DNA of 64,000 nucleotides from Paenibacillus sp. RC67 (GTDB lineage Bacteria > Bacillota > Bacilli > Paenibacillales > NBRC-103111), in assembly GCF_030020805.1 (NCBI RefSeq), contig NZ_CP125098.1:2212001-2276000 (forward strand), read 5' to 3'. The position numbers and the translations under genes were made by a program. The notes beneath the pieces are model-generated. The model was given only the letters and a program-made list of their open reading frames with translations. It was not told the DNA's origin and did no database searches. Below are positions 10,469 through 63,790 of this stretch, piece after piece; the first letter of the stretch is position 1; every line of letters begins with the position of its first letter.

Positions 10469-10659
10469 CTTGTTTTCCCAAAAGTCAAGAGGCTTGTACC
10501 AGAATATCGGGCGTTAATCGCGAATAACTTTTAGTAATTGAGTAAGATTCTACCTAAATACTGAATGTTTCATGATATTTCGGTGTATAATGGAACTATA
10601 TGAACCTATTATAGTAATATATATCTATAGCAATATGCCTATTGAAGGAGGAAGAACGA

Positions 10660-11796
10660 ATGGATCCCATTTCATCTCTGTCGGAGCTTCTGGCGGAGCA
10701 AAAAGCATCATCTTACATCGAGATTCCCGGCGTAGTTTCCAGAACGTTTGGGCAAACGACATTGTCCACAACATTGCCAATGAGCAAGCTGTTTTCCATT
10801 TATGAAGTGGATTTGGAAGTACAGCGCGCCATTGTTCCGCAAAACTTATCCAAGCTGATGGATTACATCATGTTGTACTTGGATCACCAGCAAGGCATTT
10901 ATTTTCCGGGCATTATTCTCTCGGCTAGAGGTGCCGGTGAATACGATGCAGATCAACAAGTGTACCGGCTGCAGGCGATTGAAAAGCTGTATGTCGTAGA
11001 CGGACAGCATCGTCTGGCTGCATTCCGGAGAATTATGGAAACGCTGCAAAGCAACATGGCTCGCGCCAAAGACCGCAGAGAATATGATCGTATGGAAGAA
11101 ATTACAGATAAGCTGAGCAAGCTGTATACCTTCCCGATGTCCACGATGATTTATTTGGATATTAATGCGCGTCAAGAACGCCAGCTATTCTCGGATATTA
11201 ACAAGCTTCCGCGCAAAATCGGCGGCAACCTGGCCGTATTGCGTGAACAACGGAGATTTTACCACGTATTGGCAACCCATTTGGCGGCTCAATCACCGTC
11301 GATGAAACAAATTTCCGTCGATATGTTCACGGAGCGCGGCAAAGGTCCGGAATTTTTATTCTCGTACCACTTGCTCGTAGAAATTCTTTGCGGCTTGTTC
11401 GAAGGCCGTCTGAAATCCGCAGCCCGCAATAACGGCTATTACTTTGAGGACAGTGACATTGAGGAGCATTTCAAGCTTGCTTCGTATTACTTCGACGTCA
11501 TGCTTCGCTATTTGCCGGAGCCTGAGAAAGGCGAGCTCTGCTGGACGGAAAATCTGCAAATTGCAATGGCGCTGTTCTTCCATGAGGAAGTGACCAAAAC
11601 GGGAACTTTCAACAAATATGCGTTGGAATATACAATGAAAATATTGCCGCATATCGATTGGAATGCCATCTACGTAGGTGATGAGAAGGATCGTCTGCCT
11701 AGACGCTCGCGTATCATGAAGGCTTACCAATACATTAAGGATTTCTATCAAGAACATCACATCTTCTTGATTCGCGATAAGGAGGACGTCGGCTAA
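10660..11796 (+). CDS. DGQHR-domain protein, DndB-like (first of a tandem pair)
   Basis: A 378-residue protein with DGQHR at about residues 114-118 (YVVDGQHRLAAF) and the later LFSDINKLPRKIGGN, the pattern that defines DndB/DpdB-type DGQHR proteins. The motif resembles the DGxHR loop of the ParB/sulfiredoxin fold. DndB proteins bind DNA and regulate phosphorothioate modification clusters, but no dndA, C, D or E gene is visible here. A helical, charged segment lies between the two motifs. ATG 10660 has AAGGAGG eight bases upstream; a TATAAT sits at 10586-10591. The second DGQHR gene overlaps its stop by one base, so the two products are probably partners. Function unknown. Confidence 0.8.
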   Translation: MDPISSLSELLAEQKASSYIEIPGVVSRTFGQTTLSTTLPMSKLFSIYEVDLEVQRAIVPQNLSKLMDYIMLYLDHQQGIYFPGIILSARGAGEYDADQQVYRLQAIEKLYVVDGQHRLAAFRRIMETLQSNMARAKDRREYDRMEEITDKLSKLYTFPMSTMIYLDINARQERQLFSDINKLPRKIGGNLAVLREQRRFYHVLATHLAAQSPSMKQISVDMFTERGKGPEFLFSYHLLVEILCGLFEGRLKSAARNNGYYFEDSDIEEHFKLASYYFDVMLRYLPEPEKGELCWTENLQIAMALFFHEEVTKTGTFNKYALEYTMKILPHIDWNAIYVGDEKDRLPRRSRIMKAYQYIKDFYQEHHIFLIRDKEDVG

Positions 11797-12974
11797 TGGA
11801 TGGACTTTGTCTTAAAATGACGATTCACCCGTTTTGCGATAAATTCGGGTTGGCCACTGTGGCCATTCAAGTACAGGATTTGTTAAATTACACGACGATC
11901 GATCCGATGGTTCAACGTAAACTTAGTGCGGGTCAACGCCGCAAAATCTCGAATTACTTGCAGGAACGCGAATTGGATCGGGTATTTTTCGGCCCTGTGA
12001 CGCTGTCCTTGCGCGAAGTAAGCTCTCTTGCCAAAACGGATAAAGGCCTTTTCCTTCGCCCAGGTTCCAAGCTGAGCATCTTGGATGGTCAGCACCGGAT
12101 TCTTGCGCTTGGCTACGTAAACGAGCAGCTGCTCAAAGAAGTGCGCAGCCATGAGAAGAAGGCGGCCGCTTTGAAAATCAAGCAGCGCCGCTTGCCTGAC
12201 AGCGAGGAAGTGAAACAGGAGCTTGAGCAAATGGAAGGGCTCGTCGAGCAAATTGAACGCCGCCGTTTGGAATTGGTGGAAAGCGAGCTGGCTGTGCAAA
12301 TTTATATCGGCTTGAGTGAAGAGGAAGAGAAGCAGCTGTTCGGCGATATTAACTCTAAAGTTCAGCTGGTTAGTAAAGAGCTGGGCCACTCGTTTGATAG
12401 CATCGATCCGTTAAATCTTGTCATTCAACAGGTCGTTGACCATAATGTGTTCCTTAAAGCAGCAGGTGTTGAACGCCGTGCGAACTTGACTTCCTATAAC
12501 AAAAATTTCACTTCGTTCAGTTGGCTTTACTCCGCTGCTACGATGCTGTTTACAGGTAAGATGCAGCCTTCTTACGAAATGGCCCGCAAAATACGTCAGG
12601 ACCCGTCTGCATATATTGAGATTCTTCATCAATATTTCAGCACGCTGCTGCCGTTAATGCCTGAACAGCCCGGATTGCCGCAATACAGCACGGCTAGCCG
12701 CGCGATGCAGGAAAGTATTGCTTTATATGCCCATGGGCACCTGTTTAAGGACGGAAAGTATACGAAAAACTGGACGTCTTGTCTCAGCGTTTTTGATGGA
12801 TTCGACTGGTCCCATGAAAACGAGCAGCTTATTGAGCGCTTCGGTACCTTGGATAACGGCAAGCTGAATCTGATTCATGAGAAATCTCTTCGCAAGCACG
12901 GCAAACTGGTACAGCTGTTCCGCGAGCTGCATGGAGAGCCTGTCGATGCCGGGGATGAAGCGTCTACTGCTTAA
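11796..12974 (+). CDS. DGQHR-domain protein, DndB-like (second of a tandem pair)
   Basis: A 392-residue protein with DGQHR at about 97-101 (LSILDGQHRILALG) and LFGDINSKVQLVSKEL further on. Between them lies a longer, strongly charged helical stretch (about residues 110-160, rich in K, E and Q) likely to form a coiled coil. The two proteins of the pair share the motif order but are otherwise quite different, so they are old paralogues rather than a fresh duplication. ATG overlaps the stop of the first gene (TAATG) and GGAGG lies about ten bases upstream. Likely DNA binding; substrate or target unknown. Confidence 0.8.
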   Translation: MDGLCLKMTIHPFCDKFGLATVAIQVQDLLNYTTIDPMVQRKLSAGQRRKISNYLQERELDRVFFGPVTLSLREVSSLAKTDKGLFLRPGSKLSILDGQHRILALGYVNEQLLKEVRSHEKKAAALKIKQRRLPDSEEVKQELEQMEGLVEQIERRRLELVESELAVQIYIGLSEEEEKQLFGDINSKVQLVSKELGHSFDSIDPLNLVIQQVVDHNVFLKAAGVERRANLTSYNKNFTSFSWLYSAATMLFTGKMQPSYEMARKIRQDPSAYIEILHQYFSTLLPLMPEQPGLPQYSTASRAMQESIALYAHGHLFKDGKYTKNWTSCLSVFDGFDWSHENEQLIERFGTLDNGKLNLIHEKSLRKHGKLVQLFRELHGEPVDAGDEASTA

Positions 12975-12994: not shown

Positions 12995-13039
12995 AAAAAA
13001 TCCGTGAAGAAACAGTTGATGTTTCTCGCGGATTTTTTT
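12995..13039 (+). terminator. terminator after the DGQHR pair
   Basis: Imperfect stem between AAAAAATCCGTGAAGAAAC and GTTTCTCGCGGATTTTTTT with a T tract. The A tract on the left may let it serve the convergent gene too. Confidence 0.75.
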
Positions 13040-63337: not shown

Positions 63338-63444
63338 ATATATTGTATAGTAACGATGACTTATGACACTTATCGTATTGACTCTATGTGCAATGTTGTT
63401 TATCATAGGATTGATTATACATGTTAACAACGTGGAAAGGGAAT

Positions 63445-63790
63445 AGTAGGCAGCCAACCCTTCAGAGAGCGGAATTGCTACGCTGTAAGATTCCGCAGGA
63501 TGTAACTGGCCGAAGTCGCCCTGGAGTTGCAGTGTTCAAACGAATTCAGACTGAAATACGGTAAGCGGTCTTTGTAGCAGACTAAGACGCTGGCCAATGA
63601 ACTGATGAGAGTAGACACTGCCGGTCACAGCCGTTATCTGTTAAGTGCCGCATAGCGAGATTTTCGCGACTATCCTTCCGCCTTTAAATGGGCTGCTGGA
63701 ATATGTTCGAAGAGCGCCGTTGCGGAATAAAGGTGGTACCACGGAAGCAGATCCTTTCGTCCTTTGCGGCGGAAGGATTTTTTTGTTGTA
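63445..63790 (+). promoter_or_regulatory. T-box riboswitch leader of valS
   Basis: The T-box AAGGTGGTACCACGG is at 63730-63744; the UGGU bulge would pair with a tRNA whose discriminator is A, as in tRNA-Val. A stem with GCGGAAT...ATTCCGC is the distal stem I region. The probable specifier is GTC (Val) at 63515-63517, in GAAGTCGCCCTGGAG. A terminator hairpin ATCCTTTCG / CGGAAGGAT with T7 ends near 63785. Low charged tRNA-Val should prevent termination and switch on valS. Confidence 0.9.

Follow-up and report, generated by a model that had tools for sequence, protein, structure and literature searches.

The 64,000-nucleotide stretch of the Paenibacillus sp. RC67 genome analysed here (the window) carries two adjacent genes, P1 and P2, which encode members of the named DGQHR/PF14072 (DndB) superfamily and form a fixed core operon of their Paenibacillus family, independent of dnd. 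This operon is one branch of a wider P1-P2 module of the Bacilli, in which pairing and the P1-then-P2 order recur and the two proteins are separated by a deep split. Its mechanism is a reasoned guess, in which a regulatory switch that binds DNA carries most weight and a defence role is the strongest alternative: at a probability of about 0.4, the pair would be an obligate, probably heteromeric, nucleoside triphosphate (NTP)-gated switch with a predicted ParB/sulfiredoxin (Srx) fold, a regulator like DndB, KorB and Noc.

The two genes overlap by one base, through TAATG, both have strong ribosome-binding sites (Table 1), and each encodes DGQHR followed by F-x-DIN, as an initial annotation made from the sequence alone had described; that annotation began the feature at 10586, which falls in the promoter region, upstream of the gene start at 10660. 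Both motifs are invariant in the 26 aligned P1 and the 26 aligned P2 sequences picked from 73 loci plus the window, as is the whole superfamily set (QR pair, DGQHR, FxxxN); QR, DGQ-R and FxxxN are given as related superfamily motifs in PMC4619093. Profile searches bore out the proposed relation to DndB and DGQHR proteins: P1 and P2 scored 58.4 bits (E-value 8.4e-16) and 82.7 bits (3.3e-23) with Pfam DndB PF14072 (cut-off 29.1), and 64.8 and 61.5 bits with NCBIfam DGQHR TIGR03187 (cut-off 58.85); with the DndB equivalog TIGR03233 they reached 19.2 and 27.3 bits, far below its cut-off of 328. Aligned to each other, they are about 20-25% identical. Beyond DndB, the Pfam scan detected only GmrSD_N, below threshold and at the same place in the protein, and no HNH domain, matches up to E 1 included no ParB family, and PADLOC returned only DndB-type matches (best 35 bits, P2) and a weak Orf5. 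Open frames of 792 and 841 amino acids in two relatives had raised the possibility of a P1-P2 gene fusion, which was rejected, as the DNA of both has a stop between P1 and P2.

Table 1. Features of the P1-P2 operon in the window (positions of the 64,000-nucleotide stretch).
Feature	Position	Strand	Details
Promoter-like block TGAATG-N-GTGTATAAT	10562..10591	+	conserved upstream of P1
Operator-like site ACTATATGAACCTATTATAGT	10595..10615	+	just downstream of -10
P1 ribosome-binding site AAGGAGG	10645-10651		
P1, DGQHR/DndB-superfamily protein	10660..11796	+	378 amino acids; start ATG 10660, stop ends 11796
P1 motif DGQHR	10999-11013		residues 114-118
P1 motif FSDIN	11188-11202		residues 177-181
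P2 ribosome-binding site AAGGAGG	11779..11785	+	inside P1 end; read directly in sequence
P2, DGQHR/DndB-superfamily protein	11796..12974	+	392 amino acids
P2 motif DGQHR	12084-12098		residues 97-101
P2 helical hairpin, coiled-coil-like (predicted)	12090..12281	+	residues 99-162; structure model
P2 motif FGDIN	12339-12353		residues 182-186
Intrinsic terminator of the pair	~12995..13038	+	-22.7 kcal/mol, z -5.77, 0/200 shuffles as good

Scanning genome contigs yielded 73 loci of the window's kind (type A; 70 titled Paenibacillus, two Paenibacillaceae and one Gordonibacillus), and in 69 of them P2 comes directly after an intact P1. Of the remaining four, L053 meets a contig end, L073 has an assembly gap, L075 has split frames and L076 holds a P1 fragment. 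Within the family, P1 was found in 89 of 104 genomes and P2 in 88 of 103, the same 15 genomes having neither; the 89th P1 genome (G035) lay outside the P2 sample, and a P2 match was seen there in a separate search. Both genes are present in 14 genera and absent from eight, with no mixed genus, and no P1 was detected at E 1e-8 in 142 sampled genomes of the order's other families. Carriers have one full-length P1, except G017 (two, in two pairs), G023 (broken) and G095 (partial). When the same pairs of loci were compared, the median identities of P1 and P2 (90.9 and 92.4) exceeded those of each of 12 neighbour families, which were named by eye, the closest (90.5) only narrowly. Gene neighbours differ among clades while the pair stays, and no fixed partner gene was found at the family loci (eight rows of the neighbour table lack P1 through greedy choice of open reading frames, ORFs). 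The patchy, horizontally moving distribution of mobile defence genes is thus not seen for type A. Isolated N-terminal fragments of P1 occur apart from the pair (L076:1234-1566; G065:C94:52062-52328; G071:C70:13894-14031), and P1 is split into several frames in L075 (G023) and L205 (G785), as is P2 in L075, through decay or errors of sequencing.

The 10 flanking ORFs scanned and 10 further ORFs of the window contain no dnd or dpd gene. The term "orphan" used in the initial annotation is misleading for a fixed core operon of the family that is also a branch of a wider module. A complete dnd or dpd cluster did not surface elsewhere in the genome either. Here the pair supplies the two strong PF14072 matches, beside one at E 0.03; DndC (TIGR03183) gave no match at E 1e-10, in a search that did not extend to dndD and dndE, and one TGT homologue was found at E up to 1, with no DpdA- or DpdB-specific profile in the search. 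In the family, nine of 103 genomes, RC67 not among them, exceed the DndC cut-off, five more match it weakly and 89 have no match at E 1e-10. Each of the nine has a separate true DndB (E 4e-122 or better) plus the pair. The usual annotation of DndB-like proteins, for example on plasmids, is that of DNA sulfur modification proteins. This label misleads, because the strictly paired form is a core operon of a family in which those 89 genomes have no DndC match.

The P2 profile matched seven of 397 other genomes of the class at E 1e-9. A mixed P1 profile found matches in 5 of the 199 genomes of the order that includes G574 and in 26 of the 250 of G349's order, both orders having been chosen because they held matches. 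Leaving aside G776 and G907 (short partial matches) and one further match in G958, 34 loci were read (L077, L146-L152, L183-L208), and in 32 of them P1 and then P2 stand side by side, L206 and L207 holding one gene; in L205, P1 is in two pieces. Adding four single-gene plasmid loci (L078-L081), retrieved by the same similarity, makes 32 of 38. In a tree of 76 rows, which excluded L205 and L078-L081, a single branch separates all P1 from all P2 (support 99/94, and 100% of bootstrap trees); the grouping of types A and C was flagged as a possible artefact of long branches. The loci fall into type A (the window family), type B (seven loci: L077, L146-L149, L152 and L186, two of them near-identical) and type C (24 loci). 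DGQHR is kept in both proteins of types A (26/26) and B (7/7). In type C, P2 departs from it in 24/24 (DGTQR, DGSKR and similar; one keeps H) and P1 has it exactly in 13/24, and therefore the two subunits are unequal there. The single DGQHR genes on Bacillales plasmids (L078:5923-7161, L079:5959-7089, L080:5965-7107, L081:5956-7104) score nearer P1 than P2 and are annotated DndB; in L079 and L080 they are flanked on the same side by a helicase gene and an S-layer-domain gene.

A ComK gene in the same orientation comes after P2 in 23 of the 24 type C loci (22 genomes, five families), at 75-158 bp in 22 loci and 467 bp in one, ORF starts not being settled. The exceptions noted are L192, where a transposase-like pair comes next, and L205, which is not in the tree. 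In a search of 32 chosen genomes all 23 linked genes exceeded the PF06338 cut-off, and 21 of the 22 linked genomes have two to five ComK matches, G647 having only the linked one. The linkage events are fewer than the loci, since L199/L200 and L195/L196 are close copies, and the tree does not unite the linked ComK genes (7 changes; one group in 0% of bootstrap trees). In the window's family ComK was found in none of 103 genomes, so the link is not directly transferable to the window. With AAAAN5TTTT as the consensus of the ComK box and its usual spacings, no paired box was found near type C pairs in 23 loci, and 38 single half-sites, against 20.8 in plain mononucleotide shuffles, prove little. 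Sigma-70-like genes of one cluster are found a few kb or less from the type C pair in seven loci (L188:5496-5990, L189:8888-9481, L193:14205-14696, L197:4438-4941, L199:9447-9956, L200:9092-9601, L208:9758-10267; Pfam was run on the L189 copy only).

Between P2 and ComK we observed a covarying, terminator-like element of 88 positions, consisting of hairpin 1, then a short hairpin overlapping a 9-pair terminator-like stem, then T's. In 18 aligned copies, whose relatedness inflates such shuffle statistics, the terminator form had 91.3% of cells paired and 39 two-sided changes (shuffled mean 11.8) and the alternative form 88.1% and 52 (17.3), with 0/500 shuffles as high in either case; further pair types fell under the shuffles in both forms (16 vs 18.9 and 17 vs 21.4), and sliding the partners reduced pairing to 30-51%. 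A model (R1) matched the leader in 23/23 linked loci, of which 18 had built it, gave six weak opposite-strand matches as well, and found nothing in the window or in a type B locus. It also matched 6 of 20 unlinked ComK stretches, and the leader thus belongs to a group of ComK genes rather than to the pair as such. Seven loci scanned had no Rfam gathering match at its position; it is possibly an undescribed cis-regulatory RNA. L187:8800-8887 is one example, and 28 further ComK-sense matches come from several families of Bacilli.

Type B appears to differ from type A in its setting, which includes a plasmid and nearby defence genes. With the neighbours of L186 outside the tests, Gabija-like GajA and GajB genes adjoin the pair in two of the seven loci, L077, a Priestia plasmid, and L152, where transposase-like genes seem to interrupt GajB (identified by eye; UvrD_C remnant E 0.007). 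L146 carries a candidate defence gene, PDC-M09A, at a distance of about 4 kb, in L148 dGTPase-like and DarG-like matches are next to the pair, and in L147 recombinase-like genes are nearby (by eye), two proteins tested giving no PADLOC match.

In the N-terminal part, structural matching of the models predicts a ParB/Srx-type fold, and the fold-comparison rows for P1 include ParB, Noc, SspE and DndI. The long coiled-coil insert that had been noted in P2 is modelled as a coiled-coil-like hairpin of two long helices (residues 99-132 and 137-162), longer than in aligned distant P2 proteins, most of which have a gap here. By sequence, no solved structure matched P1, and P2 matched only bZIP coiled coils. 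The two-component DNA-binding function that had been suggested fits this predicted fold and the strict pairing; modification sensing, proposed with it, has no direct support, DndC being present in 9/103 family genomes. In the switch we favour, P1 and P2 would touch each other as a heteromer and bind NTP via DGQHR and F-x-DIN; they would also bind DNA and shut down their own promoter from the putative operator-like site. In the window's family the pair may have become a chromosomal housekeeping-type regulator.

Upstream of P1, a block of the form GAATG-N12..20-GTGTATAATG occurs in 31 of the 71 regions read, and the operator-like core (a TATATGA..CTA-like match) in 29; the inverted repeat is exact in 10 of the 31 block-bearing regions. 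Allowing up to three mismatches, the site matches once in its own genome. Among 13 genomes of the genus, six have one 21-base site each, just upstream of P1, and G101 has one additional site with three mismatches; such weak extra matches mean little, because a reversed-pattern control gave five. A second, different block, GAATG-N-GGTAAAAATAGGAGAATGAGAG, precedes P1 in 18 of the 71 regions (77 bases upstream in L036, and in 17 other loci), and might be a sporulation-type promoter, judging from the consensus.

Several observations weigh against the switch. Most relatives have the operator-like repeat in imperfect form, as a hairpin it does no better than shuffled sequence (z -0.20), and in other clades the promoter block is a different one, or neither block is present. 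DndB boxes (TACGN10CGTA) are at chance level in the window (14 matches, 12.4 expected), with none upstream of P1. Both structure models are single chains, neither gave a Foldseek match at E 0.001 or better, every Z of the P1 fold comparison is below 8, and P1 residues 277-378 also match unrelated helical proteins. The six single-gene loci (L078-L081, L206, L207) indicate that pairing is not universal in the superfamily, and the defence genes near type B pairs suit defence as well as regulation.

These neighbours, Gabija-like in L077 and L152 and defence-like in L146 and L148, speak for an anti-phage or foreign-DNA defence module, a nucleotide- or modification-sensing effector of which type B would be the mobile and type A the fixed form, and the relatives SspE and DndI (fold rows) are defence effectors (PMC11662687). 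We consider this unlikely for a gene pair that, unlike patchy defence genes, is present in 89/104 family genomes, genus by genus, mostly with one full-length P1, and that has no fixed partner gene, no domain past DndB and the sub-threshold GmrSD_N, and in PADLOC only the DndB-type matches and the weak Orf5. Searches for phage carriage gave, by tblastn of P2, matches in 21 Pseudomonas phage records, with 30-34% identity over roughly a third of P2 in each, no match with a type B P1 and, in viral contigs, no P2 relative and two distant loci for P1. The ParB and Noc rows of the predicted fold, the core status in a spore-former family, the germination genes in the window and the two promoter-like blocks would also agree with a chromosome-handling factor (segregation, nucleoid occlusion or sporulation) using sites other than parS; this is less probable still, as no ParA-like partner is present in the 10 flanking ORFs scanned, the genome has one copy of the operator-like site, and the pair is absent from 15 of the 104 family genomes.

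DpdB offers a precedent for a modification-linked role. So does DndB (PMC4507180), and the pair could serve a DNA modification, as yet unrecognised, whose genes lie elsewhere in the genome; with no DndC and a single TGT in RC67, and with DndB proteins of their own in the nine DndC-bearing relatives, this is very improbable. A broader proposal is doubtful as a whole: in P1-P2 the Bacilli would have a two-protein NTP-switch module, so far undescribed, with three uses (type B in mobile defence islands, type C controlling a dedicated ComK paralogue with a new attenuator-like RNA, type A as a core regulator). If it were true, nucleotide state would be tied to DNA entry or competence through a DndB-like pair.

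Around the operon, two genes with FAD-oxidase and cysteine-rich/Fe-S domains, which we take to be GlcD/GlcF-like, lie upstream, and a sulfatase-modifying-factor domain protein and a ROK protein are encoded downstream on the other strand. That the pair has its own terminator, as initially annotated, was confirmed by folding, a simple consensus scan having missed it. A T-box leader at 63424-63767 is just over its gathering score.

Membership of a named superfamily is ordinary; what is new is the strict pairing, the place of the pair among the core genes, and the occurrence of its relatives next to ComK or near defence genes. The recurrent linkage to a ComK paralogue is a testable entry to DGQHR roles outside DNA modification. 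In the literature covered, which includes PMC12704722, PMC10853773 and PMC12491500 and to which preprints and most subscription journals do not belong, no paper was recognised as describing the DGQHR pair or the ComK link.

Compared with known systems, the pair resembles DndB in its PF14072 superfamily, DGQHR motif and similar length, and differs from it in being two genes instead of one, far under the TIGR03233 equivalog cut-off, in a genome without DndC, and in coexisting with true DndB in nine genomes. Both proteins exceed the cut-off of TIGR03187, a model that describes a domain and defines neither a two-gene module nor a ComK link. With GmrS, SspE and DndI (DUF262, DGQQR) the pair shares fold rows and the related QR, DGQ-R and FxxxN motifs (PMC4619093), but it has no HNH nuclease domain and GmrSD_N is below cut-off in both proteins. 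Finally, the predicted N-terminal fold is shared with the ParB, Noc and KorB CTPases, whose Pfam ParB profile neither protein matches up to E 1.
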